From the NCBI GenBank assembly GCA_017435745.1, contig JAFSEN010000080.1:1-46384 (forward strand): a DNA stretch of 46,384 bases, in the 5' to 3' direction. Origin of the DNA: Oscillospiraceae bacterium. Lineage in GTDB: Bacteria > Bacillota > Clostridia > Oscillospirales > Ruminococcaceae. Below, piece after piece: positions 5,361 through 31,708 of the stretch (positions are counted from its first letter, which is position 1; the number at the start of each line of letters is the position of its first letter). A program made the position numbers and the translations under genes. The notes under the pieces were generated by a model that did not search any database, was not told the DNA's origin, and was given only the letters and a program-made list of their open reading frames with translations.

Positions 5361-6227
5361 ATGAGCAGAACCATGAACATATTGAAAAAAATCTCCGCAT
5401 TTTTCCTTGCGGCGGCAATAGCTGTAACAATGGGTGTTGAAGCGTTTGCCGAACCGATGGAAGGAATACGCAACCCGAGCAGCGCCGCAAGTCTTGAGGA
5501 AGTTCCGGAGCAGAATGCCGAAATTGCAGAAAAGCTTACCGTGCCTCTTGATTTTACCGGTCTTGAATATCAGGTAGCTATTGCCAACGGACTTAACGAA
5601 TATGACTACACCAAAGAAAGCTGGTCCGTTCTCAAAGATTCCGTAATAAAAGCTCTTATAATAATCGATGAAGCGAAAGAACAGAGCATTATCGATAACG
5701 CAGAAAAGGAACTTGAAGCTGCAATCGACGGTCTTGTTAAAATGGATTATTCCGGTCTTGAAAAAGCGCTCGGCGTTGTTTATTCGATGACGGAAGAAAA
5801 TTCAGGATACATAGATACCTGGAAAAAAATCGATGAGGCTGCGGAGCGCGCAAGAAAAGCACTTATCAGCGGCGACCAGACCGAAGTAAATAACCTTACT
5901 AACGAACTTTATTCTCTTATCGAGGAAGCAAAAGAAATTTCCGTCGGTGAAGAAAAAGAACCGGAAATCGTTATCAAGGAAGTTGAAGTCCAGGTTCCCC
6001 CTTCCGATGATTTCTGCAACATTGCAGGACACAAAGCATGGCCCGTTCTTTTCATCATAAGCTTTGTGCTCAATATTGCAATGGTCGGTTTTGTGGTTTT
6101 TATTTTGCAAAAGAAACGCAACACCGACGACACAATTCCTCTTGTTCAATATGATATCGACGACGACATGGATATCGATATCGACGATATTGATGATATC
6201 GACGACATTGACGACGAGGATATGTAA
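5361..6227 (+). CDS. Membrane-anchored surface protein with FIVAR-like helical repeats
   Basis: 288 residues. A Sec signal peptide (1-30, cut after AFA) is followed by two FIVAR-like helical units (about 69-126 and 132-192), a linker, one transmembrane helix (227-249) and a cytoplasmic tail that is almost only Asp and Ile (264-288). FIVAR units occur in extracellular wall or sugar-binding proteins of Gram-positives. The tail is encoded by a near-repetitive GATATCGAC tract. ATG 5361 is chosen because GGAGGG precedes it; an ATG at 5325 lacks an RBS. It is the first gene after the promoter at 5236 and opens the putative fibre locus. Its job may be to tether the structure to the membrane; this is inference. 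Confidence 0.8.
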   Translation: MSRTMNILKKISAFFLAAAIAVTMGVEAFAEPMEGIRNPSSAASLEEVPEQNAEIAEKLTVPLDFTGLEYQVAIANGLNEYDYTKESWSVLKDSVIKALIIIDEAKEQSIIDNAEKELEAAIDGLVKMDYSGLEKALGVVYSMTEENSGYIDTWKKIDEAAERARKALISGDQTEVNNLTNELYSLIEEAKEISVGEEKEPEIVIKEVEVQVPPSDDFCNIAGHKAWPVLFIISFVLNIAMVGFVVFILQKKRNTDDTIPLVQYDIDDDMDIDIDDIDDIDDIDDEDM

Positions 6228-6280
6228 GTTTTTTAAGTAAAAAAATCCGGACAGAATGACATCTTGAGGAGAAGAGTATT

Positions 6281-7750
6281 ATGGATGAGATGAGCTGGAA
6301 AAGAACAGAATATGAAACATGGGAAGAAGCCTTCCATGGCCTTGCCCCGGTTGTAAGACAGCAGTCCGTAAGAGTTGCGGCATATACCCAGGCGCTTTTT
6401 GTTCAGGCCTGCGAAATGAATTTCGGAAAAGATTCCAAAGAAAATTCCGAAAGGATGAAAGGAAAATATGCCGACCTTGCTTATAAATGCGGCATGTATC
6501 ACCAGCTTGGAAAAGCTCTTGTTCCTCCGGAATATCAGATTTGGAACGAAAGCTTTACCGAAGAAGAAAAAGCTGTTTATAAAAAATATACTTCCCACGG
6601 ACGCGTTCTTGCCGCTGTTCTTCAGGAAAAGGGAACAAAAGGCGGAAAGAGCAAAGGCGATTTTTCCGAACAGCCCACCAAAAACATTCCCTGGCTTATG
6701 ATCCGTGAAAGCTGCGAACAGCATATGGAACGCTGGGACGGAGCGGGTTATCCGGAAGGAAAAACCGGAAAAGCAATAAGTCCCATCGCGCAGATAGTCG
6801 GTATTGCAAAGGAGCTTGACAGACTTGCTTCCGGAACAAAATCCGAAGATCCTTTCGCAGAAGCGATGCAGATCCTTATCGACCAATCCGGAACCGCTTG
6901 GAACCCGGCGCTTGTGGAAGTTCTTACTTCCTCCCGTTCCAAATGCAGAGCGATTTATAATAAATATATTCACTATACCGAAGCTCTTCCGAAAACAATT
7001 CCGCTGGTTGAAAAGAAAAAAGACCGCCCAATGGGTCTTAAATATCGCCCGATGATAAGCGATACCGCAGGAACCGTAGTTGCATACGAAGCGATTCCCT
7101 GGTTCGGCGGAGTTCTCGGACGTCCCGGCGAAACCGAAACCGCGGATGAAGTTGAAGATATGCTCGTCAGAAAAAAGATGGTCGAGGATATCTCGAAATA
7201 TTTCCTCTATGAGGCTGCCGATGCGGTGCTCAGAATTGAAAACTGCAAGCTCAACCTTAAATGGGTGCTTCTCAGAATGATGCCGAGCTTTTACCAGCTT
7301 GGAACCCAGCTCCAGAACTTCAGCCAGCTTTTCAAGGACCAGCCCATTTCGAAGGAAAAACTCCTTCTCACCGTTCCGGCGGAAATGCTTGCAAACGGCC
7401 CGAAAAACACCCTTACTCTTGCTGAACGCTATCTCAGAAACGGAATCCAGCTTGTGCTCGACGGATATGACCCGAAAAAACACGCAGAAAAGCTTCCTTC
7501 CGAAAAACTTAAGAGCATGGGATTCAATTATATCCGCATCGACCCGGAACTTTATATGCGCACAGAAACCGCGGACGCAATAGCTTCTCTTAAAGAAGAA
7601 AACTTCGTGATAATCGGCGGCGAAGCCGACAGCCACGATACCGTAAGCTGGCTCGAAGCCTGCGGAGCAGATTGCATGAGCGGAACCATTTCCGGAATTA
7701 TGGTAAGCGAGGATGAACTTATAAGAGATTCCCTTGTAAGGGAGAGGTAA
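6281..7750 (+). CDS. Degenerate HD-GYP / EAL-like two-domain signalling protein
   Basis: 489 residues, no signal peptide or TM, so cytoplasmic. Residues 25-225 look like an HD-GYP domain: RVAAYTQAL, then HQLGK at 74-78 where active enzymes have HDIGK, then HMERWDGAGYP at 148-158, which keeps the GYP signature. Residues 255-489 look like an EAL phosphodiesterase fold: YEAIPW at 269-274 for the EAL strand, LVLDGYD where DDFG is usual, RID for KID, and IIGGEA for the AEGVE strand. Several metal ligands of both domains are replaced, so it probably binds c-di-GMP or a partner rather than cleaving it (inference). RBS GAGGAG lies about ten bases upstream. It overlaps no gene, and the next CDS begins five bases after its stop, so the two are translationally linked. 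Confidence 0.72.
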   Translation: MDEMSWKRTEYETWEEAFHGLAPVVRQQSVRVAAYTQALFVQACEMNFGKDSKENSERMKGKYADLAYKCGMYHQLGKALVPPEYQIWNESFTEEEKAVYKKYTSHGRVLAAVLQEKGTKGGKSKGDFSEQPTKNIPWLMIRESCEQHMERWDGAGYPEGKTGKAISPIAQIVGIAKELDRLASGTKSEDPFAEAMQILIDQSGTAWNPALVEVLTSSRSKCRAIYNKYIHYTEALPKTIPLVEKKKDRPMGLKYRPMISDTAGTVVAYEAIPWFGGVLGRPGETETADEVEDMLVRKKMVEDISKYFLYEAADAVLRIENCKLNLKWVLLRMMPSFYQLGTQLQNFSQLFKDQPISKEKLLLTVPAEMLANGPKNTLTLAERYLRNGIQLVLDGYDPKKHAEKLPSEKLKSMGFNYIRIDPELYMRTETADAIASLKEENFVIIGGEADSHDTVSWLEACGADCMSGTISGIMVSEDELIRDSLVRER

Positions 7751-7754
7751 GCCG

Positions 7755-9086
7755 ATGGATCTCGGAAAATTCAAACCGCAGCGCGAACCGGAAAAGCTGG
7801 AAGCTTATCTTATCGCGGCTAACGACCCGGACGGAAGCCCCCAGCTGCGACCGATATTCAGAAGAAAACGCGCCGGCGAAGTTCTTACAAGACAGCAGGT
7901 TTCCGCAATCAAAAAAGGCCGAAAACTCCTCCGCAAGGAAATGAAGGAACAGGGCCTTAAGCGCAGAATCGATTTTGAAATCACGGCCACAAATATGGGC
8001 CTGTTCTTCGACAGGAACAAACTTTTCTGGCCTTTCTTTCTCTGGCTCATCAGGGACAACACGGTTTTAAAGGTTCTTACTACAACCTTGCTTCTTACAA
8101 CAGCGGTAACCGTTTCGGTCCCGGTGATCCAGTATGTGACCCAATACATAACCGAATACATCCAGGAATTTATCGATAGGATAGTCGAGCGAATCGTCAC
8201 CGAAATTGAGGAACAGGAAGTTGACCGTTTTACGATCAACCTTTCGGATGAGCTTTTCAATTCCGGTTTCGTTCTCAGCGAAGATTATACCTTTGAAGAA
8301 ACCGCAAGCCAGCTTATTTCCGTTCCGGCGGAAGGCGTTCCCTGCACTTCGATCCGCGATATTCCCCAGAATGTTCATACAGTTGACGGACGCTATCCGG
8401 ACAATTCGTTCTATGCCTACACCTTCTATTGCCGCTATGAAAGCAGCACCGAGGACCCGATAGATTATCATTGGTCACTCAACATCACCCAGGAAACGGA
8501 ACACACCGTTGAAAACGCCGAAACCGGCGAAACCACAACGCGCCATCTTTCCGATGCAATCTGGGTAATGGTTTTTGAAGACAACAAAATGATGTTCTAT
8601 GCAAAACTCGGCGAAGACGGGGAAATGGAAACCATTCCGGAACAGACAGTTACGGATATGGGATATATCGAAGCCCCGATGATGCCTTTTGCAAGGGAAC
8701 CGGAAAACCAGTACGAAATAATCCAGGAAGGCGAATATTACAATTATTGGAGGGTTAAACCCCAGAATTTCGTTTCCGACACAATCGTGGCGGAAGGCCT
8801 TATGATGGGCGTTACCCCGTTCAATATGGAATCTTTCAACCCAGAAGTTCCCTTCGACCCGGAAAACCCCAACGGAATCCACAAATACACCATTGTAATC
8901 TGGCTTGAAGGCGACGACCCGGAATGCACAAACGCCCTGATCGGCGGTTCCATCGGAATGAACTTTGTCATCAAGTTTGCCGACGAAGTTATTGACGAGG
9001 AAGAAGGCGAAGAAGGCGAAGAGGGTGAGGAAGGCGGCGAAGGTTCCGAAGATTCCTCAAGCGATGAATCCGGCGAGGGAAATTAA
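7755..9086 (+). CDS. Membrane protein with C-terminal WLEG beta module (locus core protein)
   Basis: 443 residues. A basic cytoplasmic part (1-100) is followed by one transmembrane segment (about 103-126), a short helical stalk rich in Tyr, Ile and Glu (127-155) and a long extracellular part. Near residues 376-405 it has HKYTIVIWLEGDDPECTN, a motif also present in the products at 12316 and 18254 and in looser form in those at 9756 and 24568. The tail is an acidic Glu-Gly-Glu repeat ending in Ser/Asp. Unlike its neighbours it has no SipW-type cleavage motif, so it may stay in the membrane and form the base of the structure (inference). RBS GGGAGAGG lies ahead of ATG 7755, five bases after the previous stop. 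No known family name can be given. Confidence 0.75.
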   Translation: MDLGKFKPQREPEKLEAYLIAANDPDGSPQLRPIFRRKRAGEVLTRQQVSAIKKGRKLLRKEMKEQGLKRRIDFEITATNMGLFFDRNKLFWPFFLWLIRDNTVLKVLTTTLLLTTAVTVSVPVIQYVTQYITEYIQEFIDRIVERIVTEIEEQEVDRFTINLSDELFNSGFVLSEDYTFEETASQLISVPAEGVPCTSIRDIPQNVHTVDGRYPDNSFYAYTFYCRYESSTEDPIDYHWSLNITQETEHTVENAETGETTTRHLSDAIWVMVFEDNKMMFYAKLGEDGEMETIPEQTVTDMGYIEAPMMPFAREPENQYEIIQEGEYYNYWRVKPQNFVSDTIVAEGLMMGVTPFNMESFNPEVPFDPENPNGIHKYTIVIWLEGDDPECTNALIGGSIGMNFVIKFADEVIDEEEGEEGEEGEEGGEGSEDSSSDESGEGN

Positions 9087-9089
9087 AAC

Positions 9090-9625: not shown

Positions 9626-9627
9626 AA

Positions 9628-9755: not shown

Positions 9756-12038
9756 ATGATTAGTAAAGCACAAGCTAAGCGTAAACAGGACATCAAAACC
9801 AAATTGATGGCCGCAATCGCTATGCTGCTGGTGTCCTCCATCATGATGGTATCCTCCACCTATGCATGGTTCACACTCTCAACCGCACCTGAGGTAACCG
9901 GTATCCAGACCGCTGTCGGAGCTAACGGTAACCTCGAAATTGCACTTCTCCCTAAAGATGGACTGACTTCTTCCATCACTACTGCCGTTGGTGACAGCAA
10001 CCTTGCAATTGAAGCAAAGAACGTAACCTGGGGTAACCTTGTTGACCTCAGCGAAAGTTCAATTTATGGCCTTGATGGCATCACCCTTTATCCCGCTGCA
10101 ATCAACTATACTGGTGAGAGTGCAGATGCTGAAGTTGAGGGTATCGGAGCAACTTTCCTGAAGACTCCTCAGTATGGTTCCGACGGCCGTGTTGCGCAGC
10201 TTGCAGCAAACACCTCCACCGGTTATTTTAATGCAACAAAGGGCGACTTCTATCCCAATAGCGATATGGGTGTTCGCGGCATCGGTACCGCATCCGGAAT
10301 GACTCCCCGTCAGCTTGCATACCGCAATGCTGTTTCTGCTGCTAATACCGCAACCGCAAGCGCAAAGAGCACTGCTTCCCAGTCTCTTAACAATAACGGT
10401 TCCGATCTTGCAAACATCGTTATCAAAAAAGCTACAAGCGATAATCCTACTTTTACTCAAGCTGATATAAGCGCGCTTCTTACTATCGTAAATGACCTTC
10501 TTGGTACTGAAAGTAAAACCGGTGCTCTTGAGTATATCGACAGGGCTTATATGAACTATATTCTTGCTGCTGCTGCTTCTGCTGCCGCAGGTGAAGGTGC
10601 TACTGCTGATCAGGCATACGTTCAGGTTGAAGAGGCTATGGAAGTAGAAAACGCAACAGCACAAAGCGTTCTTGATTCTCTTCCTAGCGGAGTTACTGTC
10701 GATAGTCTTTCAACTGCAATCGGAAAACTCGAAGCAACCAAAAATGCTGTTAATACTGCAAAAGGCGAACTCGAAGCTCTTGAAGGCGAAAGCATTACTT
10801 GGGCGCAGTTGTCTATCCCTCTTGAAAAACTTGCAAAATATGATGCGATGCTTGTTAACGGTATTGCGGCTAAAGACATTATGACCGGTGATAACATGAG
10901 CAACCTCGTAAACTCCGTTGCTTCCGGCGGTCTTAAAGTTACCATGGCAACCGGCGGCGGCGTTTATGCAGATATTGCTGACCATTGCGGCGACTATACC
11001 GCTCAGGTTCTTATTGCAGAGGTATCTTACGGCGGTTTAACACTCAAAAACACTCCTGCACGTATGGAAACCAAGACCACCGCTAAATATCTTGCAAATA
11101 TTTCTACTGTTGTAACCGGTTTTGGTGCGCCTGCTTCCGGTAACACCACTGATATGCCTATCACCGATATGTACGGCTATATCATCGACCTTGCATTCCG
11201 TACCAATGCTGCTGACTCTAACCTTCTTCTTCAGCAGGAAGCTATAGACCGTATCTACAGCGATAACGCTAACGATGCTACCATGGGCCACGGTTCCAAT
11301 ATGACCTTCAACATCACTGCAGGCGGTCTTACTCTTACACAGCTTAGAGACCTTATGGATGCAATCCGTATCGTATTCTTCACCACTACTACTGAAGGCG
11401 GCAATACTGTCGTTAAAGCAGCAAAACTTGATGTTCCTCAAAACGCAGATGATATGGCTGGTCTTTTGGGAGCAGACGGATATAAAGCAAACATCATTCT
11501 CGGTTCTATTAATGGCAAAGGTGGATTCACTCCGGATCCTGAAGAAAGCAATGTTCTTATGGATCTTAACCAGAACCAGGCACATCAGCTTTCCGTTCTT
11601 GTATATCTCGACGGTAACCTTGTTGGAAATGAAGACGTTGCAGCACAGGCAGCAACTTCTATGAGCGGCAAACTCAACCTTCAGTTTGCTTCCTCCGCAA
11701 CCCTTGTTCCTATGGATTATTCTCAGCTCCATACTCCGAACACCGCAGGCGGCAGCCAGACCCAAACCCAGTATGAACAAGCAACCTCTTATACTGAAGG
11801 AACCACTTATTACACCAGAAGCGATAAATATGTTGAGAAAGAAGTAACAGCTGATACTTTTGCTGATCTTAAGGATACTTTGTATACTGACACCAATGGT
11901 ACCCCGGCAGATTCTTTTGATGAAAATGCGACATATTATGTAAAAGATGGTTATACTTATACCGAAGCAAGTGGTGTAACTTCTGAAAACTTCGGTAGTG
12001 GCACATATTACGTAGTAAAAACCACTACTACACCTTAA
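9756..12038 (+). CDS. Large SipW-type (TasA/camelysin-like) secreted fibre protein
   Basis: 760 residues. The N-terminus has a basic stretch, a hydrophobic core and the signal-cleavage zone SSTYAWFTLSTAPEV (about 33-47), the pattern of SipW-dependent substrates such as TasA and camelysin. It is followed by GANGNLEIAL, which recurs almost exactly in the product at 24568. The mature part is Ala/Ser/Thr-rich with a helical stretch (about 195-380), a segment DLAFRTNAADSNLLL that matches DLWVRTNAPNSYLIL of 24568, and a C-terminal VYLDGNLVGNEDV module (about 612-650). After residue 660 come T-Y-Y repeats in a Thr-rich tail. ATG 9756 is chosen because it gives the normal signal length and follows AAAGGA. 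It is the likely major secreted subunit. No LPXTG-type anchor is seen. Confidence 0.82.
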   Translation: MISKAQAKRKQDIKTKLMAAIAMLLVSSIMMVSSTYAWFTLSTAPEVTGIQTAVGANGNLEIALLPKDGLTSSITTAVGDSNLAIEAKNVTWGNLVDLSESSIYGLDGITLYPAAINYTGESADAEVEGIGATFLKTPQYGSDGRVAQLAANTSTGYFNATKGDFYPNSDMGVRGIGTASGMTPRQLAYRNAVSAANTATASAKSTASQSLNNNGSDLANIVIKKATSDNPTFTQADISALLTIVNDLLGTESKTGALEYIDRAYMNYILAAAASAAAGEGATADQAYVQVEEAMEVENATAQSVLDSLPSGVTVDSLSTAIGKLEATKNAVNTAKGELEALEGESITWAQLSIPLEKLAKYDAMLVNGIAAKDIMTGDNMSNLVNSVASGGLKVTMATGGGVYADIADHCGDYTAQVLIAEVSYGGLTLKNTPARMETKTTAKYLANISTVVTGFGAPASGNTTDMPITDMYGYIIDLAFRTNAADSNLLLQQEAIDRIYSDNANDATMGHGSNMTFNITAGGLTLTQLRDLMDAIRIVFFTTTTEGGNTVVKAAKLDVPQNADDMAGLLGADGYKANIILGSINGKGGFTPDPEESNVLMDLNQNQAHQLSVLVYLDGNLVGNEDVAAQAATSMSGKLNLQFASSATLVPMDYSQLHTPNTAGGSQTQTQYEQATSYTEGTTYYTRSDKYVEKEVTADTFADLKDTLYTDTNGTPADSFDENATYYVKDGYTYTEASGVTSENFGSGTYYVVKTTTTP

Positions 12039-12072: not shown

Positions 12073-12137
12073 TTTTTTCCGAACGCAAAGAAAAGGTCCC
12101 TGCCCCGGTTTTTCCGGGGCGGGGACCGCGGAAAAAC
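12073..12137. repeat. Very stable GC-rich hairpin
   Basis: GGTCCCTGCCCCGG (12095-12108) pairs with CCGGGGCGGGGACC (12114-12127) over 14 positions with one T-G wobble and a T5 loop. An outer TTTTTCCG/CGGAAAAA pair extends it. It may end the 9756 transcript, but no T run follows immediately. Confidence 0.7.
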
Positions 12138-12148
12138 AAAAGGGTCGG

Positions 12149-12267
12149 GGGTTGCTCCTTGTGTTTTTTGAAAAAAAGCCTCCCTTGCCTAAAGGGAGGG
12201 GGACCGCGAAGCGGTGGAGGGATTCTTCCGCCTTCCAAAAGAAAACACAAAGAGGAGCCCGCAACCC
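12149..12267. repeat. Nested inverted-repeat, MITE-like block
   Basis: Outer arms GGGTTGC with GCAACCC, then TTGTGTTTT with AAAACACAA, enclose two inner hairpins: CCTCCCTT/AAGGGAGG (12179-12199) and ACCGC-GAA-GCGGT (12203-12215). There is no open frame inside. The whole looks like a small non-coding mobile or dispersed repeat placed in the gap before 12316. Confidence 0.65.
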
Positions 12268-12315
12268 AAACTTATTATTATATATAGTATAAATATATAA
12301 GGAAAGGAGAAACCG

Positions 12316-13578
12316 TTGAAAGCAAAAGCAGCCGCTTCTGAAAAAGCGAAAAAACAAAGAAGACGCACAATAATTTATATTTATATGCTCCTGATCCTGC
12401 TTTCCCTTTTCGTCGGTGTTTCATATACCTGGTTCACCCTTTCCCGAAGCCCAAGAGTAAGCGATATGAACGTTTACATAACCACCCAACCGGGACTTGA
12501 GCTTTCGGCGGATATGGAAAACTGGGATCTCCAGCTTGATTTCTGGGATATCATAAACGTAACGGACCCCCTTGATGAAGAAAAGGACAAGCCGGTGCTA
12601 AGGCCGGTAACCTGGTCCGAAGAACAGCAATGTTTTGTTGCCGCTGCCTATGGCGCAGACGGAAGGCTTCTTGCCTACCGGGACTGGCACAATCTTTCCG
12701 ACGAAAGGAACGCCAACAAACAGAATTTTGAAGGTTATTACGTAAAGGCAACCTTTTACGTCCGCTGCGGACAGAACGCAGATATTTCTCTTTCGCCCGC
12801 GGTTGAAGTAAACGAAGGAATCGACGGTTCCGGTACATACGTAAGGGGCGTTCCGGTCTGGAATCCGGGATACCCGAAACCGAAGGACGAAAGCAGCGGG
12901 GAATCTTCCGAAGGTTCTTCTTCCGAAGAAAGCTCTTCCTCCGGTGAAAGTTCTTCCGAAACTTCCTCCGGCGACGGAAGCCTTTCCCTTTCGGAAGTAA
13001 GTTCCGAAAGTTCGCCGGAAAGCGAAAGTTCCGAAGGCGGCGGAGGTCTTGAACTTGAAGAATGGGTCGGAATGGGCCACGACAACGGCGGCCTTGGCGC
13101 AGAAGGCGCGATCCGCTTCGGTTTCAGAATAACGAACCTTAAACAGAACGAAGAAGGCCAGTTTGTTCCGGACGAAGAAAACGAACCGTTCTTTATGATC
13201 TATGAACCCAACTGCGATGCTCATGTAAACGGTGCGGAAGGATATTTCAGAACCCCGAGCATGGACGGAACGGAAGACCTTATCGACCCGGAAAAGATTA
13301 TTCTTCAGAGCAAAAGCTTTTGGGAAGAATCCGACCCGATTGAGCACGGAGTTGTTATCCACACCCTCGGCGATTTTGTTGACGCAGAGGGAACGGTTAT
13401 CGACCCGCCGAAACTTTTCTCCATTAAAACCGGAGAAATCGTAAAAATTGAACTGTATGTCTGGCTTGAAGGACAGGATATGGACTGTGTCAACATGAAC
13501 AGCGAAGCCATGATCGAAGCGAGCATCCAGTTTGCCGGAAAAGGCGAAGGCAATTCCGGCCTTGTAAAAATCGAGTAA
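12316..13578 (+). CDS. SipW-type secreted protein with Ser/Glu linker and WLEG module
   Basis: 420 residues, TTG start. It begins with a basic stretch (KKQRRR), a hydrophobic core, and SYTWFTLSRSPRV as the SipW-type cleavage zone (about 36-48). The mature protein has a first beta-rich part, a low-complexity Ser/Glu linker (about 191-245) and a second part with FMIYEPNCDAHVNG, parallel to FTIYEPNADFHP of the product at 18254, followed by ELYVWLEGQDMDCVNMN near 378-394. TTG 12316 is preferred because AAAGGAGA lies six bases before it and it gives a normal signal. The gene precedes the first signal peptidase by 70 bases. It is probably a fibre or adaptor subunit; no exact family match is claimed. 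Confidence 0.78.
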   Translation: MKAKAAASEKAKKQRRRTIIYIYMLLILLSLFVGVSYTWFTLSRSPRVSDMNVYITTQPGLELSADMENWDLQLDFWDIINVTDPLDEEKDKPVLRPVTWSEEQQCFVAAAYGADGRLLAYRDWHNLSDERNANKQNFEGYYVKATFYVRCGQNADISLSPAVEVNEGIDGSGTYVRGVPVWNPGYPKPKDESSGESSEGSSSEESSSSGESSSETSSGDGSLSLSEVSSESSPESESSEGGGGLELEEWVGMGHDNGGLGAEGAIRFGFRITNLKQNEEGQFVPDEENEPFFMIYEPNCDAHVNGAEGYFRTPSMDGTEDLIDPEKIILQSKSFWEESDPIEHGVVIHTLGDFVDAEGTVIDPPKLFSIKTGEIVKIELYVWLEGQDMDCVNMNSEAMIEASIQFAGKGEGNSGLVKIE

Positions 13579-20294: not shown

Positions 20295-20295
20295 T

Positions 20296-22391: not shown

Positions 22392-23090
22392 ATGGAAAGA
22401 GAGAAAAAGAATAGCTCCCTTTTGCAGATTTCTGTGCTGGTTTTGCTCCTTTGTTTCGGAATTCTTGTTGCGTCGGTCGGAACAGCCTTCGGACGGTATA
22501 AATCGAGCAGCGAGGGAACAGTTGTTTTTGAAATGCGCGAACCGGCAAAAATATATCTCGGAAGAGTTTCGGTTGCCGATAACATTGAAACTTTTTCACC
22601 ACTTAATGCCGATGAGGAGCTTTTGTGGAACGTTGACGAAAACAAAGCAACTCTTGAAATTGCTGTTTCGAACGGAATTCCGTCGGACTATGAAAACCGT
22701 ATAGGGGCGGAATTTCCGGAAGAGGATCTTAAAGTAAAAATACGCCTTATAAGCGATCTGGGGCTTACCGCAGGAACGGAAAAGAACGACAAGGATGAAT
22801 CTGTTCCTTTTCCTGCAGAGGTAAAAATCAAGGTTACCCAGGAAGGAATAAACGGCGAAAGCGTTGAAAAAACAGCCGCGGCCGAAAGGATACTTAAAGG
22901 TTCAAGCCTTTTTTATACCAACGGCGACGGTTGGGTATATTCGTTCCTTGATGACGGAAAAGAAATTTTTTGGGACCTTAGGGGCGGAGAACTTTCTTAT
23001 ATAAAACTTACGATAGAAGTCGATATTTCCGGAATCGACGCGAAGGCCTTGAAGCTCGAGCCTGAAATTATTGTTGAAAGAGCAGAATGA
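22392..23090 (+). CDS. Secreted protein with TasA/TapA-like signal
   Basis: 232 residues. A basic N-terminus, a hydrophobic core and SVGTAFGRYKSSSEGTVVF (about 28-46) form a variant of the SipW-type cleavage zone with G-R-Y in place of A-W-F. The mature part is about 190 residues, beta-rich and acidic, with no Cys after the signal; length and layout resemble minor subunits or anchoring proteins of TasA-type fibres. AAAGGAGA lies upstream of ATG 22392. It starts 32 bases after the beta-helix gene and the next CDS starts 24 bases after its stop. I recognise no named domain. Confidence 0.7.
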   Translation: MEREKKNSSLLQISVLVLLLCFGILVASVGTAFGRYKSSSEGTVVFEMREPAKIYLGRVSVADNIETFSPLNADEELLWNVDENKATLEIAVSNGIPSDYENRIGAEFPEEDLKVKIRLISDLGLTAGTEKNDKDESVPFPAEVKIKVTQEGINGESVEKTAAAERILKGSSLFYTNGDGWVYSFLDDGKEIFWDLRGGELSYIKLTIEVDISGIDAKALKLEPEIIVERAE

Positions 23091-23114: not shown

Positions 23115-24554
23115 ATGGCAAACAAAAGAATAAATGTCTGCTGTGTTCTCCTTTCGGTTATCTTATGCGCGGCTTTTCTCTTTGTTTCGGTAACCGAAAG
23201 TTACGCGAGATATGCGGAAACTTTTTCCTGCAGAACGATTCTTGTTCCGGGAGAAAAAACTGCGTTTCAGAGCGATTACCTCGTTAAAAACACCGATGCT
23301 CAGCAAACCGTAATCGTCGGCGAACTTTCCGCCGAAAGCAGAGAAAAGAGCATCACTTTCACTATCGAATCTTCTGGAGATTCTGCCGGAGAGATTTTGA
23401 GCATCACGAATGAGCACGGAAGCTACGTTGAAGTTTCTTCGGACGTTGTTTCGGAAGATCCCGAGCAGGAAGCAAGACTTGAGGTTCCGGCAAACGATTC
23501 AAAAACCGTTACACTGAGCTTTAAAGCGACGGATACCGCGTTCAGCACGCCCCATGAAAAGCTTGATGTTGACGTAAACGTTGCCTGGGGAGATCTCACC
23601 GGAACGTTCCGCGTGCTCATACCGGCGGTTGAAGCACCGCAAACGGAAACAGCGGAAAACCCGGAAGGTTCTTCCGAAAGCGGAGAAAACCTCGGGCTCA
23701 GTTCTCCGGAAGAACAGGAAGCTTCGGAAACATCCGAACCGGCGGAAGAAGATTCCGCAGAGCAGGATAATTTGGAAAACGGAATCATGAGCATCAGTAT
23801 TTTTGATGCTTCCGCGCTGCTTCCGGTAAAAGTTACTCTTAAAGATGAGGTTACAGAAGCGGTTTTCGGCCTGTTCGACCAGAACAAACCGGAACCCCAG
23901 CCCTTCCCGGAAGGGACAAGATTCAGCCTTGATAACGGCGAAAGTTTTTATATGTTCTGCGGCGAAAGCACCGCAAGAATTGAAAAAGAAGACCTTAACG
24001 GTTCGGTGCTTTTCGATTTCAGCAAAACGGCGCTTTTGGAACAGGAAAATATTTCGGTTGCAATGCAGCCCTGGGAATCCGGAACGAACAATTCGATTTG
24101 TTCGGTAACGGTGAGCACCGGAGCTGAAAAAGCTTTTGGAACAGCGCAGTATTCCGGCGAAGAAGAAATAGGAATTGCCGGAAGCGAAGATTCCGGAGCG
24201 GGGAATATTTCCGAAGGTTGGAAAACCTGCACTCTTGACAGAAACGAAACAGCCGAGTTCTTCTTCCCCACGGAATGGGCGGATGCGGAACTTTCCTGTT
24301 CGGTGCAGATACTTAACCTTCGGGAAAACGGAACGGCCGGTTATGACAACACAGATATGGTCGCGACGGAATACCGGATCGATGAGGAAACGGGAACACC
24401 GAGTTTTTGCATCAGGACCGGCGAAAACAACCCCCAGGCGGGAGCATACAGAATTTATTTGATTTGGAAGTTCAAGGATATAGTTTTTTTGAAAACAGAG
24501 ATTCCTTTCTTTATAAATTATTCAACCCCTTCCGACAGTTTGTCGGAGAGTTAG
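23115..24554 (+). CDS. Secreted protein with A-R-Y type signal and acidic linker
   Basis: 479 residues. Signal core, then VTESYARYAETFSC (about 26-39) as the cleavage zone. The first mature part (about 40-175) has immunoglobulin-like strand spacing (FTIESSGDSAGE, KTVTLSFKATD) typical of a beta-sandwich. A Ser/Glu/Pro linker (about 178-220) follows, then a second beta-rich part of about 250 residues ending without an anchor. AAGGAG precedes ATG 23115. It may be an anchoring or accessory subunit, as TapA is for TasA; that comparison is by position and signal only. Confidence 0.68.
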   Translation: MANKRINVCCVLLSVILCAAFLFVSVTESYARYAETFSCRTILVPGEKTAFQSDYLVKNTDAQQTVIVGELSAESREKSITFTIESSGDSAGEILSITNEHGSYVEVSSDVVSEDPEQEARLEVPANDSKTVTLSFKATDTAFSTPHEKLDVDVNVAWGDLTGTFRVLIPAVEAPQTETAENPEGSSESGENLGLSSPEEQEASETSEPAEEDSAEQDNLENGIMSISIFDASALLPVKVTLKDEVTEAVFGLFDQNKPEPQPFPEGTRFSLDNGESFYMFCGESTARIEKEDLNGSVLFDFSKTALLEQENISVAMQPWESGTNNSICSVTVSTGAEKAFGTAQYSGEEEIGIAGSEDSGAGNISEGWKTCTLDRNETAEFFFPTEWADAELSCSVQILNLRENGTAGYDNTDMVATEYRIDEETGTPSFCIRTGENNPQAGAYRIYLIWKFKDIVFLKTEIPFFINYSTPSDSLSES

Positions 24555-24567
24555 GAGGTGCCCCAGA

Positions 24568-27500
24568 ATGACAGAAACACAGAAAAGGATAGAGGCTTAT
24601 CAGAATCTTCTTCCGGGAATCAGAGAAAAGGTGACGGCGGTGGCGCTTTTGCTTGCGCTTTCTGTAATCATGCTCACTTCTGCATCCTTTGCGTGGCTTA
24701 CAATTTCCCGCGCACCGGAAGTTACCGCGGTAAGCACCAACATCGCCGCAAACGGCAACCTTGAGATTGCGCTGGCGACAGGGGATGGAACAATTGCTCC
24801 GGGAGAATCTCAAGTCGGAGATTCTATGGCGACGCAGGATGTCAAATTGGCGAACATCACTTGGGGTAACCTTATCAACCTTGGCGACCCGAGTTACGGA
24901 CTTGATAACCTTGTTTTAAGACCGGCACAGCTTGGAACTGGTAACCTTAACAGAGACCCGCTGGTTGCAGCGGGATATGATTCCCAAGGTCGTATAACCG
25001 GTTTGAACGCTGATTTTGGTTATGCAAAATGGCATGTGGAAGACGAAGAAGATGACGGTATATTTAAGATAACAAATGAATTTGGCGTCAGAGCTATATC
25101 CTCAGTTACATATAAAGATATAACGAGCGATAGCATTTCAAGAGAATATAGACGAATGCTTTCCGAAGCATCCAGCTTGAATGCTTTGGCACAAAATACA
25201 TATTTATCGCTTAACGACGGGGGAAAATCAGGAGGATATATTGATACTCTTTCAAAGCTTGTCGGAAGTTACGCTGAAGAACATCTAGGTCAAAGTTCAA
25301 AAAAAGTTACCAAGCAGCAGCTTAATACTCTTAAAGGTATGTATGATGTGCTGATTGATGCATATGAGCAGGAAGCGGAAGCGATAGCAATGTGCATTAA
25401 TATTCAGATTTATCTTAAGGACAGAGTAAAAGATAACGCAATTTATACGGGAGATATGTTATTTAACCTTTCGAATTCCGATATAACTAATTTACAAAAC
25501 GGAACCAACGGAGTTAAAATAAACAATCTCATAAAGTTTTTGAGCGACTACAAAAAAATTAAAAATACAGATTATCCGAAGTTAGAGAAAATATACGATG
25601 AATGTCCCAGCGATGGTGTTACGTTTGGGGAAATCGATTTTTTGATCAATACACTTGTAGATATGAATACAGCTACAATCAACGATCAGACTGTAAGTCA
25701 GTTTGCAGATAATGCAATGAATAACATTGGCTCTGTTTTAGGAGGGAGCTTGACGGTAAAAATTAAAGGAGGAGCCCTGTTTAATATTGAGGAGAGAACC
25801 GGGGCAAGAATAAAAATAAGCACGAAGATACCGATATTATTTTTATCTCCTAGTGCCAATATTACCACAAACGCGACTAACAACTATTTTGAAAGTGACG
25901 TATCACATATTAATAACGCTGCAGGAAATATGAGTTCAAAAACAGATGCTGTAGCGGAAGATACTTTTGGCCTTGCGGTTGATCTGTGGGTAAGAACAAA
26001 CGCACCTAACAGCTACCTTATTCTTGAGGGAAGCCTTAAACGAAGCGAAGAAGAAAGAGAAGTTGAACTTACCACAAAAAACTCAAAAGGTGAAACTGTA
26101 CCGGTTTATAAGATAAGCAGGGTGGAAGATGTTGTTGTTGGCGATATTGAAATGACAATGACAAATGACTACCAAATATATGAGGACGATGCTTTAATTT
26201 GGAAAAACTCCGTAGATAAAGAAGTATTCAACCTAAAAACAGGTGAACTGCCGTTAAAAACAGAAAGAAAGATAACGATTGATGGAAAAGAATTAAGCCT
26301 TTATTCCCTTAAAAGGGATAATATGGAATATATGCTTTATCAGGAAGAAGGAAGAGCTTGGTTTAAAGTGGATGATAATACCATCTTCCCTCTTTATGAA
26401 AGCGATGGAGAACCAACACCTGTAATAGTAACTATACGCGATATAATCGGATACGAAGGCGAAAACCGTGTTTGGGATAGCGAAAATCTTGTAAGCGCAG
26501 ATATGATTTCCACAACACAAGGTACAGGAAGCTGCTATGTTTATTATATAGATTCTCCTGAAGATCATGAGAGAAGCCTTGGGATGCTTAAAGCGATGGA
26601 AGTCGCATTTGTAGGTGAGGATGGAAAATTGCTTGTAAAAGCATATATGGATACAGATAATGCTTATGAAGATAACGGACGTGTTACTGTTCCTCTTATA
26701 ATAGACCCTATGGTGCAACCGATGGGAACGGATTCCGAAGGAAATGAAATTCGCGGCATTACACATCTTGAGCAGAATACTCCAACTCGTATAACGGCCA
26801 TTGTGTATCTTAACGGCGAAAAACTTGAAAATGATGATGTTCTTTCCGCTGCGGATATCCAGGGACAGCTCAATATCCAGTTTGGAAGCAGCCATAATCT
26901 TGAACCTATCAAAAATGAACAACTTGAGGTTTCTGCGTTGAAAGTTTCCGCAGAAGTAAGCCCACTTTCCGAAGATCTTACAACAACAGTTACGGTTTCT
27001 ATTGACAGCACAATCGAAATGCGTGACAGTATTGTAAAGGCATTTTTCCTCCGTAAAATCAACTCTGCACAGGGTTCGCGAGAAGATGATATGACTTTCA
27101 CAAAAGAAGCGGACGGAAAATGGAGAGCCACATATACTTTCAAAACCCCTGGAAAATATGTACTTCGTACGATAACGATTGATGGTAAGGAATATGTTCT
27201 TGAAAATCCTCCGGAAATTGAGATTGAAGGTTTTGCAGTACAGTCTGTTTCTTGCGAAGCACTGAGCGGAAGTGAAAAAAGAGTAACAGTACTTACTGCA
27301 GATGAGCATTTTGATACAAATGTTCGAGTAATGTTTGCGACAAACGAAGAACATAATATTCCGAGTACAGTTAAAGGCCAGTTCCAGAACATGGAAGATG
27401 GTTCGGTGGTAACCATAAGCTTTGCTTTGAGTTCGCAAGGTTATTGGGAAGGTAAAGCAATATTCCAATCCTCCGGAGATTATGAATTCAGATATCTTAT

Positions 27501-29829
27501 CGTAGATGACGCAATTCAGGATCTTGCCGCCGATGATGAAGCCTTGGATAAACGTTTTTATTTAAACCTCAATCTCGGTATAAAGGTTGAAATCGAGGCA
27601 TATGAGGAAACTTCTATCCTGTTTGTTCCGGAGGAAATGACCGAGGAACAGAAACTTATCGAATTGGGCGTAAAGATTAAGGACAATAATGGCGATGAAA
27701 TAAGAGGTATTTCTGGCGCAAAACTATATTACAGCTCAGCAACATCCGGTTCGGATTACATGGACACAGACCTTATCTGGAACGTGGACGACTATAAAGG
27801 TGCGCTCCAGACATTAAGCGCAGGTATCGGAAAATGGGAATTCAACAGAGTTACTATTGGCAAAAGTGTTATTACAAAAGCAACAAAAGCCCCGACAATT
27901 GCGCTCATGTCGCCAAATCCTCCTGCATATCAAAGTTCCGGAACACCAGGATATCAGTATGTCGGCTCAAGCGTATATATGAGCGCGTTTGTTTCCGATT
28001 CGGATACCGCCTTGATGAAAGCTTATTTAATCAAGGACGGGGAGACCAACGGACAATGGATAGATCCTCAGCCGACAATTCCGGGTCAGGCAGGCAGCGA
28101 GGGCAAGGAATGGAGATTTACAATTCCGGCTGATGATAATGAAGGAAATTATCAGCCCGCAACATGGAAACTCACCAAACTAAAAGTCTGGAACGTATAT
28201 GACACCGACGGAACTTTGCTTGATGAAAATAATCCGATAGAAATCAATGTTGAAGGAAACTCTACTGTCCTTTATGAAGATGTATATCTCGGCGGAATCG
28301 ATTTGGGACAGACCGATTCTCCGGAAAACACTCCTATTAATGGTGGAAACGCATTTGCCGAATATACCATCAATCAAGCATGGTTTAAAGTTAACTTTGT
28401 TGATGTTGAGGGAGGAACTGTAGGCTCTCAGAATTTCCTTGATTATGGATATCTTACTTTTGAATATGTCGGAAATTCCGGACCTTACGGACACTACACT
28501 ACGAGTAGCAGCATAAATTATTCGTTCGAAATTGAACTTACAGGTTTGTCGAACGGAACGATGCAGGTTATCAACGGCGGTGAAGGATTTAAATATGCCG
28601 GTGAATACGAAGTCGGTTTGAGATATAAGGTTAAAAATGTTGATGGAGAAGTGGTTTATACACACGATGATCTGGAAGAAATGGGAATCGAACTTTCCGA
28701 TGTTATTGTAAAATCGAACAAGCCCACTGTAGAGATTATCAATGTTGGTTCAACAAACAGCGATATTAACGGCAGCGGAGCGTATCGTGTTTACACCGCA
28801 TCTGAACCTAATGCCAACACTATACTTATAGGTGGAGATTCCGGAACAAAATTCTCTACATTTAATCTTGAAAGTGCTTCTGTATATATTCAGGTTCCTG
28901 CTAAAAACGGTAGCTATGATACAAACAAAGCGTATGCTTACGCTCCTACCGTAACGCTTAAGCTTTCAAACATTGCAACCGGATATACAGCTGCTTCGAT
29001 GGTATTTGAAACACAGAATGTAAATTCCAACAATTCGACATTCAATTTTGGAGGAGCCACAACCGCAACCGCATCTGTTGGTAATGCAATATCCGGAACA
29101 GTTTCCGGAAATACGGTGGCAACATATCCGAAATGTTATCCGGCAGGAACGATGACTCAGAATATGATAACCATAACTTATGGAGATTATACTTTTGAGG
29201 CAGAAATTTCCAAGACCATAACTATCGAAAACAAACAGAGCCCGCTTTATGCAAACGTTGTTATTGGCGAGGATTCCTATCCAGGAAGCAAAAACCTTGT
29301 AATATTCAGTACGAACGGAAAAACCGTTACACTTCCCAACGCAAGTTTGGTTGATCTTGAATGGGATGACAGCACCTCGACAACCACACCAAGAGTTTTT
29401 ACTGAAACCAAAAAAACACCTAATGGAACGTATTATGAAACTTGGAGGAGTGGTTGTAACAACCAATATCAGGCATACACATTGTATGAATTTGAACAAG
29501 AAGCCATAACGACCACAACAACTAATACAACTAAATGGAAAATAACGGGTTGGAGAATAAATGGTGTGGAATATGCTCCGGGTGCAATTATAGAAATTGA
29601 AGAAGGCGCAAATGTCGAGGCTATATTGGAATACAATGTACTCGCTCCTGTAGAAATCCAAACAAAGATAACGCAGACCGGAATATATTTCGAGCGTGGA
29701 AACGATACAACAGGAGATCCGCCTACAGGTTATACAAATATTACAGAATGTGAATATAGACAATATATGGATGAATATAGCGATAAAGGAGTTAAAACGG
29801 TTCTTACAGAAAATGAAACAACCATATGA
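24568..29829 (+). CDS. Giant SipW-type protein with TasA-like head and beta-sandwich tail
   Basis: 1753 residues. The N-terminus has a SipW-type zone ASFAWLTISRAPEVTAV (39-55) and IAANGNLEIALATGDG, nearly the same as in the 9756 protein; ITWGNLINL and DLWVRTNAPNSYLIL also match. The head module closes with IVYLNGEKLENDDV and NIQFGSSHNLEPI near residues 742-785, again like 9756. From about 790 on, repeated beta-sandwich-like units follow (SVSCEALSGSEKRVTV and others), then Ser/Thr/Asn-rich segments. No C-terminal anchor is present, so it should be held through its head module or by polymerisation. GGAGGTG precedes ATG 24568. It looks like a fibre subunit extended by adhesin domains. Its base composition is more AT-rich than the genes before it. 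Confidence 0.78.
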   Translation: MTETQKRIEAYQNLLPGIREKVTAVALLLALSVIMLTSASFAWLTISRAPEVTAVSTNIAANGNLEIALATGDGTIAPGESQVGDSMATQDVKLANITWGNLINLGDPSYGLDNLVLRPAQLGTGNLNRDPLVAAGYDSQGRITGLNADFGYAKWHVEDEEDDGIFKITNEFGVRAISSVTYKDITSDSISREYRRMLSEASSLNALAQNTYLSLNDGGKSGGYIDTLSKLVGSYAEEHLGQSSKKVTKQQLNTLKGMYDVLIDAYEQEAEAIAMCINIQIYLKDRVKDNAIYTGDMLFNLSNSDITNLQNGTNGVKINNLIKFLSDYKKIKNTDYPKLEKIYDECPSDGVTFGEIDFLINTLVDMNTATINDQTVSQFADNAMNNIGSVLGGSLTVKIKGGALFNIEERTGARIKISTKIPILFLSPSANITTNATNNYFESDVSHINNAAGNMSSKTDAVAEDTFGLAVDLWVRTNAPNSYLILEGSLKRSEEEREVELTTKNSKGETVPVYKISRVEDVVVGDIEMTMTNDYQIYEDDALIWKNSVDKEVFNLKTGELPLKTERKITIDGKELSLYSLKRDNMEYMLYQEEGRAWFKVDDNTIFPLYESDGEPTPVIVTIRDIIGYEGENRVWDSENLVSADMISTTQGTGSCYVYYIDSPEDHERSLGMLKAMEVAFVGEDGKLLVKAYMDTDNAYEDNGRVTVPLIIDPMVQPMGTDSEGNEIRGITHLEQNTPTRITAIVYLNGEKLENDDVLSAADIQGQLNIQFGSSHNLEPIKNEQLEVSALKVSAEVSPLSEDLTTTVTVSIDSTIEMRDSIVKAFFLRKINSAQGSREDDMTFTKEADGKWRATYTFKTPGKYVLRTITIDGKEYVLENPPEIEIEGFAVQSVSCEALSGSEKRVTVLTADEHFDTNVRVMFATNEEHNIPSTVKGQFQNMEDGSVVTISFALSSQGYWEGKAIFQSSGDYEFRYLIVDDAIQDLAADDEALDKRFYLNLNLGIKVEIEAYEETSILFVPEEMTEEQKLIELGVKIKDNNGDEIRGISGAKLYYSSATSGSDYMDTDLIWNVDDYKGALQTLSAGIGKWEFNRVTIGKSVITKATKAPTIALMSPNPPAYQSSGTPGYQYVGSSVYMSAFVSDSDTALMKAYLIKDGETNGQWIDPQPTIPGQAGSEGKEWRFTIPADDNEGNYQPATWKLTKLKVWNVYDTDGTLLDENNPIEINVEGNSTVLYEDVYLGGIDLGQTDSPENTPINGGNAFAEYTINQAWFKVNFVDVEGGTVGSQNFLDYGYLTFEYVGNSGPYGHYTTSSSINYSFEIELTGLSNGTMQVINGGEGFKYAGEYEVGLRYKVKNVDGEVVYTHDDLEEMGIELSDVIVKSNKPTVEIINVGSTNSDINGSGAYRVYTASEPNANTILIGGDSGTKFSTFNLESASVYIQVPAKNGSYDTNKAYAYAPTVTLKLSNIATGYTAASMVFETQNVNSNNSTFNFGGATTATASVGNAISGTVSGNTVATYPKCYPAGTMTQNMITITYGDYTFEAEISKTITIENKQSPLYANVVIGEDSYPGSKNLVIFSTNGKTVTLPNASLVDLEWDDSTSTTTPRVFTETKKTPNGTYYETWRSGCNNQYQAYTLYEFEQEAITTTTTNTTKWKITGWRINGVEYAPGAIIEIEEGANVEAILEYNVLAPVEIQTKITQTGIYFERGNDTTGDPPTGYTNITECEYRQYMDEYSDKGVKTVLTENETTI

Positions 29830-29868
29830 TGATTTTATTATCATCAATAACCAGTCCTAATTTAAAAA

Positions 29869-29910: not shown

Positions 29911-29932
29911 TTATAGTAAGGAGGCACCAACA

Positions 29933-31708
29933 ATGCTTGAAAGAATAAATAAATATTTTCCGCGGCTTTTGGCGGTGCTTTTTGCGGTCATAATCATTTT
30001 TATTTCTGCCCCGATAGTTTATGCCGAAGAAGGAACCTGCGGAAGCAATCTTACATGGAGTTTTTCAGCAGGAACCCTTACAATTTCCGGTTCGGGAGAA
30101 ATGTACAGTTACAACGATAAGAATTATGCGCCTTGGTATGATTTAAGGGAGGACATAGTCCGTATTGTTCTTCCGGAAGGATTAACTTCCATCGGCAGAC
30201 TTGCTTTTTATGAATGTAAAAACATTTCTTCGGTAACGATTCCCTCTTCGGTAAAAACAATAGGCGAGAGTGCTTTTGCTTTCTGTGAAAATATACAGAT
30301 AATGAACATAGGTAAGGCAGTGGAGATTATCGGAAAATCAGCTTTTTCGGATTGCTATTCGATTACAGCAATAAAGCTTCCCAATTCATTGTTTTCCATT
30401 GGTACAAAAGCATTCTATAGATGCGAAACCATTACAACGATAACGGTTCCCGCAAATGTTACCAAAATGGGAACATCGGTTTTTTCATATTGTAAAAACC
30501 TTGTTTCTGCAACGATAAATGCTAACATTTCAGAACTTCCGGAATATACTTTTTATGGATGCGAAAAACTGAGTACCGTAAAACTTCCGGACAGTATTAC
30601 TGAAATAAGCGATTATTCTTTTGAAGGCTGCAATATGCTTGATACGGTTTATTATAATGGAGAAAACATTGAACGGGAAGAACTTCAGGAAAAAATTGAA
30701 GAAAGTGCACCTTCCTTTGAAGAAAACGGAAGTGTTTCTTCCGGAGAGGTTGGAAATGTGAGCGGAACAAACATATTTGTTGAAAATCCGGATGGAAGCG
30801 TTCATTTGGAATCAACAACAGTTGAACAAGACGAGAATTCAACTGTTTCAACAAACAGTAATGCAACAATTAATCTAGACGGAAGTGTAACGGATGTTGT
30901 TACAGAGATGGATGTTGTTGTAAACAATGATTCCGGCTGGACAGAAGCTGTTGATTCAACAAAAGATGTGCTCAATGAGTACGGAACCAATGAGGACGGA
31001 AGCGAAAACCACGTTGATATGTATCTTTACCTTGAGGAAGGAGCTTCTATCGACAGCACTTTTGTCGAAACCATTGCAGGAAAAGACATAACAGTAACCA
31101 TTATGACCGCGGACGGTTCCGTATGGAAGCTGAACGGTAAGGATATTGACGTTGCGGCTCTTTCCGGAGAATACAATCTTTCCTATGTTCTTGAACCGGG
31201 AACACCGGAACTTTGTGAAGAACTTGGAGTGAGCACTTGCTTTGTGCTCAAATTTCTTGCTCCGGCGGAAGTCAATGCGGAAGTGCTCATTCGCATTGGA
31301 CCTTCTTATGGAAGACAGAATGCAACCCTATTCCAGAAGGATAAAAAGGAACTTGAACGTCTGCAGAGCGTTGTGGTTGACGGCGAAGGATATGCTCATT
31401 TTTATCTTGGTTCTGTAAGCGACAAAACGGAATATTATATTGCTATGAACCTTCCCGGTGCAGCGGAGGAAGCAATCGTTCCGGAGAATATGATGGCTGA
31501 ATACGGCAACCTTGAATATACCGAGCCGATCCAGTACGAGATAACGGGAAGAAAATCTTCCTGGGGAATGAACCTTGGACAGGTAATGGGAATTCTTGGA
31601 ATTGTTATGGCTGCAGTCATAATTTTCGTTGGCGGAATCATGTTTATGTGGAATAAAGCAAGGCTTAAAAACGGCTATGTTCCAAAATTTGATGACGACG
31701 AAGAATAA
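29933..31708 (+). CDS. BspA-type leucine-rich-repeat membrane-anchored protein
   Basis: 591 residues. Signal peptide (1-31), a bacterial beta strand pair (LTWSFSAGTLTISGSG), then about seven BspA/TpLRR-type repeats of 22-23 residues (about 78-240; units like LTSIGRLAFYECKNISSVTI). Next comes an acidic Ser/Val/Asn region, a globular domain, one C-terminal TM helix (about 550-572) and a short cytoplasmic tail ending FDDDEE. Such LRRs bind host or neighbour proteins on the cell surface. AAGGAGG precedes ATG 29933. It shares the signal-ectodomain-TM-acidic-tail plan with the products at 5361 and, without the tail, 38996. It closes the locus before a strong terminator. Confidence 0.85.
   Translation: MLERINKYFPRLLAVLFAVIIIFISAPIVYAEEGTCGSNLTWSFSAGTLTISGSGEMYSYNDKNYAPWYDLREDIVRIVLPEGLTSIGRLAFYECKNISSVTIPSSVKTIGESAFAFCENIQIMNIGKAVEIIGKSAFSDCYSITAIKLPNSLFSIGTKAFYRCETITTITVPANVTKMGTSVFSYCKNLVSATINANISELPEYTFYGCEKLSTVKLPDSITEISDYSFEGCNMLDTVYYNGENIEREELQEKIEESAPSFEENGSVSSGEVGNVSGTNIFVENPDGSVHLESTTVEQDENSTVSTNSNATINLDGSVTDVVTEMDVVVNNDSGWTEAVDSTKDVLNEYGTNEDGSENHVDMYLYLEEGASIDSTFVETIAGKDITVTIMTADGSVWKLNGKDIDVAALSGEYNLSYVLEPGTPELCEELGVSTCFVLKFLAPAEVNAEVLIRIGPSYGRQNATLFQKDKKELERLQSVVVDGEGYAHFYLGSVSDKTEYYIAMNLPGAAEEAIVPENMMAEYGNLEYTEPIQYEITGRKSSWGMNLGQVMGILGIVMAAVIIFVGGIMFMWNKARLKNGYVPKFDDDEE

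Follow-up and report, generated by a model that had tools for sequence, protein, structure and literature searches.

SipW-dependent fibres, such as those of TasA, CalY and BsaA, assemble outside the cell, in the case of TasA by donor-strand exchange, and we know of no energy source for any of them. Motors of the McrBC type are known from DNA restriction. An association of McrBC relatives with signal peptidases has been named, in a short paragraph, by Bell et al. (eLife 2024; PMC11090510). In their "CoCoPALM" systems, an NxD GTPase with FtsB-like transmembrane (TM) and coiled-coil helices is combined with a coiled-coil DUF2357 partner and with neighbours of the signal peptidase family. The peptidases are called likely pilus assembly factors, and a fuller account is deferred to a later paper. 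SipW, TasA, biofilm and amyloid have no occurrence in the main text of that article, and a literature search for CoCoPALM returned the name from the article and its preprint only, with no later paper. The present analysis concerns a gene cluster at positions 5361 to 31708 of contig JAFSEN010000080.1 from an Oscillospiraceae bacterium, of which a stretch of 46,384 nucleotides (nt), hereafter the window, was analysed.

Judged by its sequence, this locus is an enlarged form of the named but hardly described CoCoPALM kind, with which it shares three features: an NxD McrB-like domain, a DUF2357 McrC homologue with a coiled coil, and signal peptidases. An initial annotation of the window had held that the gene set matches no known system; this does not stand, since the association of McrB and DUF2357 proteins with signal peptidases had already been named (PMC11090510). 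What is new are the seven SipW-type cargo proteins, the degenerate EAL/HD-GYP protein and the hairpin after the first cargo gene, S1.

Conservation of the cluster

The source genome of the window comprises 1.8 Mb in 103 contigs and is 89.8% complete. From 5361 to 31708 every gene lies on the + strand, in the order A, B, C, a GIY-YIG open reading frame (ORF), S1, S2, S26B, AAA+, McrC-like, S3, S26B, S4, S5, S6, S7 and a leucine-rich repeat (LRR) gene (Table 1). All the genes that the initial annotation had named are found on this strand and where it had placed them. Its description of short gaps holds from S2 through S7, where neighbouring ORFs overlap or lie at most 70 nt apart, and fails at three wider breaks: 204 nt after 9086, where the GIY-YIG ORF follows, 277 nt after 12038 and 103 nt after 29829. 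Promoter scans of the sequence gave no more sites than in shuffles. Terminator-like sites numbered 36 and 23, against means of 27.9 and 15.3, respectively.

Comparison with other genomes, the check that had been proposed along with the initial annotation, found the co-occurrence of these genes and confirms that the cluster is one real, conserved system. Orthologues of AAA+ occur in 10 further genomes of a family sample (197 genomes) and, at more than 490 bits, in 14 other genomes of a class sample (391); in a phylum sample (398) the window is accompanied by weaker relatives only, of at most 128.3 bits. Named records hold 19 loci with AAA+ relatives, all in metagenome-assembled genomes (MAGs), mostly of Oscillospiraceae or Clostridia and with a ruminant host for 12 of the 19. 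Pooled, the family, class and named-record loci amount to 44 distinct member loci, the window among them, which span at least nine families plus one Bacilli MAG. Four weak family matches (G005, G018, G101 and G135) are other relatives and not members. G553, G298 (360 bits, at a contig end) and the second places in G404, G442 and G545 stand outside the member counts, and L112, whose contig agrees with that of L039 in length and gene order, was left out.

Linkage was counted within 10 kb and on the same strand, with L051 counted once. An S26B gene is found near AAA+ in all 44 member loci (43 by script, and L039, with both peptidases, by its gene listing). In 37 of them the distance is at most 163 nt, and at least 32 loci hold two or more S26B genes. 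A McrC-like gene is present in 41 of the 44, AAA+ lying at a contig end in the other three, and an S profile matches in 38. The pair of AAA+ and its coiled-coil partner is indeed conserved, and among the examined loci it travels with peptidases and usually with secreted proteins, as had been proposed; its McrBC identity had been overlooked.

The same profiles found no S26B gene near any of 25 other McrB relatives. This control set consists of 5 loci in which the membrane part of AAA+ goes unmatched and of 20 more distant McrB relatives, namely all 7 weakly matching class genomes and 13 of the 49 weakly matching phylum genomes, some on short contigs. Among the controls, the B profile gave a single match, on the opposite strand (L149), and the McrC profile matched in 3 of the 20. 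Since the gene order recurs in related genomes and S26B accompanies 44 of 44 members against 0 of 25 controls, the cluster is non-random, and a mere chance neighbourhood is ruled out. Furthermore, all 11 family genomes with AAA+ fall among the 59 of 197 that carry an S26B gene above cut-off (9e-7 if the genomes were independent). The linkage counts come from related loci and are non-independent.

In a quick tree, which carried long-branch warnings, the 44 linked AAA+ proteins form one group with a Shimodaira-Hasegawa-like approximate likelihood ratio (SH-aLRT) support of 95, and inside it 22 loci form a clade with SH-aLRT 100. The gene order of this clade is S1-S2-S26B-AAA-McrC-S3-S26B-S4-S5-S6-S7; it is complete in some loci, and the cargo array has undergone losses or insertions in L039, L040 and L044. 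In four of the five relatives without the membrane part (L127 to L130), twin AAA genes flank a McrC-like gene (AAA-McrC-AAA).

Partial AAA matches, below 60% identity and none covering 80% of the query, are present in 239 of 72,556 plasmid and 2 of 50,697 phage records. Two plasmid relatives have no annotated signal peptidase nearby, and the gene after AAA encodes DUF2357 in one and a hypothetical protein in the other. Two genomes of the same genus have no match to AAA+ or to the first peptidase, P1, and their TIGR02228 matches (E 8e-5 and 2e-6) are far weaker than those of the S26B proteins in the window. Their best matches to two flanking genes are 27-31% identical, and one flanking gene is unmatched in one of them. 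Three tRNAs at the left end of the window (from 90 to 373) and a VanW-like gene with a large serine recombinase at its right end (43557-46383) suggest that the region may be mobile or variable.

Components of the cluster

Against 177,635 PDB sequences, at E 0.01, the AAA+ profile had McrB as its sole match (6hz4, 6ut6 and 7vsr; E 5e-4 to 1e-3). The McrB model NF008457 is matched weakly by the AAA+ of the window (E 1.6e-4, far under the cut-off), and the McrB NCBIfam model gives a weak match in 8 of 10 AAA+ members, all far under the cut-off. A strong match is obtained with the PADLOC candidate PDC-M26A (8e-42). Such matches, together with its motifs, assign to the protein a McrB-like domain of the NxD clade. 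Ten aligned AAA+ proteins, including one from a Bacilli MAG, show no variation in Walker A (GISGTGKTSL), Walker B (LDEMN), NND or DRA, and from these motifs activity as an NTPase is likely; GT[IA]NND is present in 44 of 44 membrane-group AAA+ rows. As proposed initially, the protein appears to be membrane-bound, with one predicted TM at residues 51-69, numbered from the TTG start. A crude heptad signal follows at about 90-117, between the TM and the AAA domain.

The partner of AAA+ contains the N-terminal domain of McrC, DUF2357 (PF09823; 29.0 bits, cut-off 23.3), and its tail consists of charged heptads. When 19 aligned McrC-like members were searched with Pfam at E 0.01, DUF2357 was matched by 9 of them and the other 10 had no match at all; no nuclease family, nor any family other than DUF2357, was matched in the 19 proteins.

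Both S26B peptidases claimed initially score above the TIGR02228 cut-off of 51.85 bits, and they are the only two of the source genome to do so. The Ser-Met, Thr-His-Arg and Gly-Asp motifs are kept in 96-100% of 48 aligned S26B copies. The number of SipW-type signal zones had to be revised: they are present as described, and there are seven of them instead of six (at 9687, 12316, 18254, 20197, 22392, 23115 and 24568). Cargo of the S1 to S7 type has, judged by motif, a SipW-type signal and cleavage site. The pattern [AGTS][WR]X stands where the hydrophobic core ends in 129 of 134 S proteins from 21 extended loci, with W in 105 and R in 24, and an aromatic residue follows the W or R in 80 of the 129. 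In TasA, a site with Phe at P2' is cleaved by SipW and poorly by LepB (PMC10269814).

The cargo proteins are in part related to each other. S2 and S3 resemble one another with an hhalign probability of 99.8%, and S1 is 46% identical to the start of S7. The source genome holds four S1-like matches, all in the window, and the S4 profile finds 20 matches. Giant ORFs of about 3250-3460 residues lie on contigs with a reduced core (L028:2423-12808, L030:2068-11826 and L020:8790-19160); two of the three adjoin ORFs with a SipW-like signal match, and one of them, when scanned against Pfam, gave no match.

A GC-rich hairpin follows S1. With a stem of at least nine pairs, of which at least six are G-C, as the criterion, such a hairpin occurs in 16 of 21 S1-S2 gaps (including L040, where an LRR gene precedes S2, and L044, with a gap of 6 nt) but in no more than 13 of the 145 gaps elsewhere. 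The length of many S1 gaps makes a hairpin likelier there. The whole S1-S2 gap of the window folds with a z of -6.4, and dinucleotide-shuffle z values range from -2.1 to -10.0 in 16 of 17 folded S1 gaps, with -1.0 in L039. Sequence and length differ between the stems, and most have no T run; we therefore take them for signals of mRNA processing or 3'-end formation by which S1 is raised above the genes downstream. Two loci with duplicated S1, L043 and L044, also have a strong hairpin separating the copies, which is outside the 16 counted. Downstream of the hairpin in the window there is also a long imperfect inverted repeat (about 12142-12267; the fold of 12085-12275 has a z of -7.8), a 25-base piece of which has a single occurrence in the source genome.

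The genes upstream of S1 encode a protein with weak FIVAR resemblance (A), a degenerate signalling protein (B) and a membrane protein with a WLEG module (C), the last two of which had been recognised as such from the start. The FIVAR match of A is under the cut-off and two TMs are predicted; a gene matching the A profile lies upstream of B in 16 of 21 extended loci. In B, HD_5 scores 58 bits (cut-off 27.2) and EAL 26.9 bits, under its cut-off of 31.3. HQ[LI]GK replaces HDxGK in 16 of 16 full-length copies. Seven reduced loci have an equivalent with EAL only, and in the alignment each of the seven has Gln in place of the EAL Glu; one such protein was scanned (EAL, 111.6 bits) and its alignment with RocR has the same Gln. 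The HDxGK and EAL motifs have catalytic roles, and we read B and its EAL-only equivalents as pseudo-enzymes and B as probably cytoplasmic. A single TM is predicted in C, whose N-terminal part, also probably cytoplasmic, is basic, with a net charge of +10 over 103 residues. The terminal WLEG module of C, and no other part, is shared with S2 (hhalign probability 82.8%), and the likeness to the module of S3 is weaker (39.8%). A C protein at L047:2780-4210 contains an insert that resembles FIVAR repeats in the alignment.

At the other end of the cluster, the LRR protein also adjoins S7 in G105 and G168. It is followed in the window by a surface protein of 2299 residues (31937-38836) whose C-terminal NPDTG, TM and basic tail could represent a sortase signal; six sortase matches exist in the source genome, none of them on the contig of the window. 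The GIY-YIG ORF (9291-9617; 62.6 bits) lies between C and S1, as does a close relative in L035, and no other was found among the loci listed.

Table 1. Features of the cluster in the window
Feature	Position	Strand	Description	Score
A	5361..6227	+	secreted FIVAR-like, C-terminal TM, acidic tail; accessory	
B	6281..7750	+	degenerate HD-GYP + degenerate EAL; no TM predicted	
C	7755..9086	+	TM-anchored; domain after TM ends in WLEGDDPxC	
S1	9756..12038	+	SipW-type secreted; A-WF site; proposed major subunit	
Hairpin	12095..12127	+	GC-rich, 14 pairs, directly 3' of S1; place recurs, letters and length vary	
S2	12316..13578	+	SipW-type secreted, WLEG module; T-WF site	
P1	13649..14596	+	S26B signal peptidase (SipW/archaeal-type)	TIGR02228, 88.5 bits
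AAA+	14628..16193	+	membrane-anchored (predicted) McrB-like NTPase: TM, short coiled-coil-like stretch, AAA domain with NxD motif	
McrC-like	16221..18206	+	DUF2357 domain, then long charged coiled-coil tail	
S3	18254..19492	+	SipW-type secreted, WLEG module	
P2	19485..20294 (start 19464/19485)	+	second S26B signal peptidase	TIGR02228, 89.1 bits
S4	20197..22359	+	SipW-type secreted; A-WY site; start codon uncertain	
S5	22392..23090	+	SipW-type secreted; G-RY site	
S6	23115..24554	+	SipW-type secreted; A-RY site	
S7	24568..29829	+	giant SipW-type protein, 1753 aa; start resembles S1	
LRR	29933..31708	+	BspA-type LRR protein; C-terminal TM; accessory	LRR_5, 202 bits

Proposed role and competing explanations

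It seems probable that the locus is a CoCoPALM-type system in which a nuclease-free McrB/McrC-like NTPase, located at the inner face of the membrane, serves SipW-type export for surface fibres. The strongest support for such a mechanism is the presence of a peptidase in every member locus examined. A more specific version, in which this membrane-docked, nuclease-free McrBC-type NTPase powers or gates SipW-dependent fibre assembly and is itself controlled by the degenerate EAL/HD-GYP sensor, is put forward tentatively, as an idea that falls somewhat short of being probable.

The following sequence of events could be imagined. S1 to S7 would be exported by Sec and stay tethered in the membrane through SipW-type signals not yet cleaved. 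P1 and P2 would then cut at the W or R sites, often followed by an aromatic residue, which the ordinary signal peptidase presumably handles poorly. The membrane-anchored AAA+ protein, assembled in a ring and stimulated through the partner's DUF2357 stalk, would spend NTP on the cytoplasmic side of C, on the peptidases or on uncleaved precursors, and in this way gate processing or the handover to the fibre. The degenerate EAL/HD-GYP protein may sense a signal, plausibly a cyclic dinucleotide, and set the gate. Finally, S1, with the hairpin at its 3' side, would be made in excess and be the main subunit, while S2 to S7 would provide minor subunits, tips or anchors.

Several observations weigh against this reading. 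The most serious is that elsewhere S26B peptidases and their cargo do without this motor: among the 59 family genomes whose S26B gene exceeds the cut-off, 48 have no AAA, so the motor would be an add-on, and in the accessible text on the sipW-bsaABCRSD operon 'ATPase' has no occurrence (PMC7395162). The Bacillus SipW model NF046067 gives P1 99.9 bits, under its cut-off of 190. A link of the cargo to the known fibre proteins did not emerge either: the TasA/camelysin family PF12389 has no match in the source genome, the S2 and S3 profiles have no meaningful match in PDB or Pfam, and none of the NCBIfam SipW-cargo models was matched; homology of the cargo to TasA or camelysin is not claimed. Searched against PDB, the McrC-like profile did not match any solved McrC, so that the McrC identity depends on DUF2357 in 9 of the 19 members, and the McrC half of the proposed McrBC relationship is weaker than the McrB half. 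Conservation of the other parts is incomplete as well, with C in 36 of the 44 loci, B in 32 and an S profile in 38; the misses are due partly, and only partly, to contig ends. Lastly, an ancestry in defence is possible, because the five relatives without the membrane part (L127-L131) carry no S26B gene nearby and the two plasmid relatives adjoin other AAA-domain genes.

Among the competing explanations, extraction or quality control survives best, although we consider it rather unlikely. Here the AAA pair would extract from the membrane, and recycle, SipW-type precursors that are stuck or have gone to the wrong place, or else signal peptides after cleavage, without building a fibre. The AAA+ protein, with its predicted membrane anchor, adjoins both peptidases, and it is missing from most S26B genomes of the family, as expected of a helper. 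The pair's position, with cargo genes on either side, and the conserved basic N-terminal part of C, fit a dedicated partner better and argue weakly against a general extraction role.

A function in defence, as a membrane-bound type IV restriction-like system with the surface proteins as sensors or decoys, appears more doubtful still. It would account for the McrB/McrC ancestry, for the match to PDC-M26A and for the GIY-YIG ORF, and the wider NxD clade figures in the census of type IV restriction by Bell et al. (PMC11090510). However, no nuclease family was matched in the 19 McrC-like proteins, the GIY-YIG ORF recurs in L035 alone among the loci listed, and S26B accompanies every one of the 44 members and S proteins accompany 38, in contrast to the 25 other McrB relatives. 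The idea of an ordinary, enlarged operon of the tapA-sipW-tasA type into which an unrelated AAA pair was inserted by chance is very improbable. It gains from the fact that many family genomes (48 of 197) carry S26B and no AAA, but is disfavoured by the linkage conserved across nine families and a Bacilli MAG: S26B stands at most 163 nt from AAA in 37 of the 44 loci, and 41 have a McrC-like gene within 10 kb, with AAA at a contig end in the three exceptions.

If the motor does serve SipW-type export as proposed, the assembly of SipW-type fibres, or its start, would be powered or gated by a conserved cytoplasmic NTPase, and motors of the McrBC type would have a second trade besides DNA restriction. 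To our knowledge, this would be the first NTP-driven pathway for a TasA-like matrix and the first surface-building relative of McrBC. The trio of S26B, AAA+ and DUF2357 proteins, which gut bacteria carry, occurs in at least nine families, and the question can thus be put to the test in any culturable member.

Comparison with described systems

The tapA-sipW-tasA operon of B. subtilis and the sipW-tasA/calY/capP genes of B. cereus resemble the present locus in combining a SipW peptidase with dedicated cargo (PMC13082335). They have a single peptidase with two or three cargo proteins, whereas the window has two and seven, respectively; 'ATPase' has no occurrence in the accessible part of that text (PMC13082335), and no sequence homology of their cargo to the S proteins was found. 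Another comparable case is the sipW-bsaABCRSD operon of C. perfringens, a clostridial SipW operon with several secreted proteins (PMC7395162). There, bsaA, which encodes the polymer-forming subunit, is followed by a predicted terminator with read-through, comparable to the hairpin after S1 (PMC7395162). This operon differs in having one peptidase, and a two-component system in place of the EAL protein (PMC7395162).

On the side of the motor, E. coli McrBC type IV restriction and the CoCoNuTs share with the locus a McrB-like AAA protein and a DUF2357 partner (PMC11090510). In contrast to these, no nuclease family was matched here in the 19 McrC-like proteins, a membrane anchor is predicted, and the neighbours are S26B and secreted proteins. 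A nuclease in or beside the McrC homologue, as in McrBC and CoCoNuT systems, was not found, the GIY-YIG ORF being the only such gene in the window.

The closest likeness is to CoCoPALM: an NxD McrB-like domain, a TM with a coiled-coil-like stretch, a coiled-coil DUF2357 partner and signal peptidase neighbours. The NxD domain, the DUF2357 McrC homologue with its coiled coil and the signal peptidases are all represented, and the FtsB-like part may correspond to the predicted TM and the crude heptads that follow it in the AAA+ of the window. Beyond what the CoCoPALM paragraph describes, this locus brings two S26B peptidases, seven SipW-type cargo genes, a degenerate EAL/HD-GYP protein and a WLEG membrane protein.

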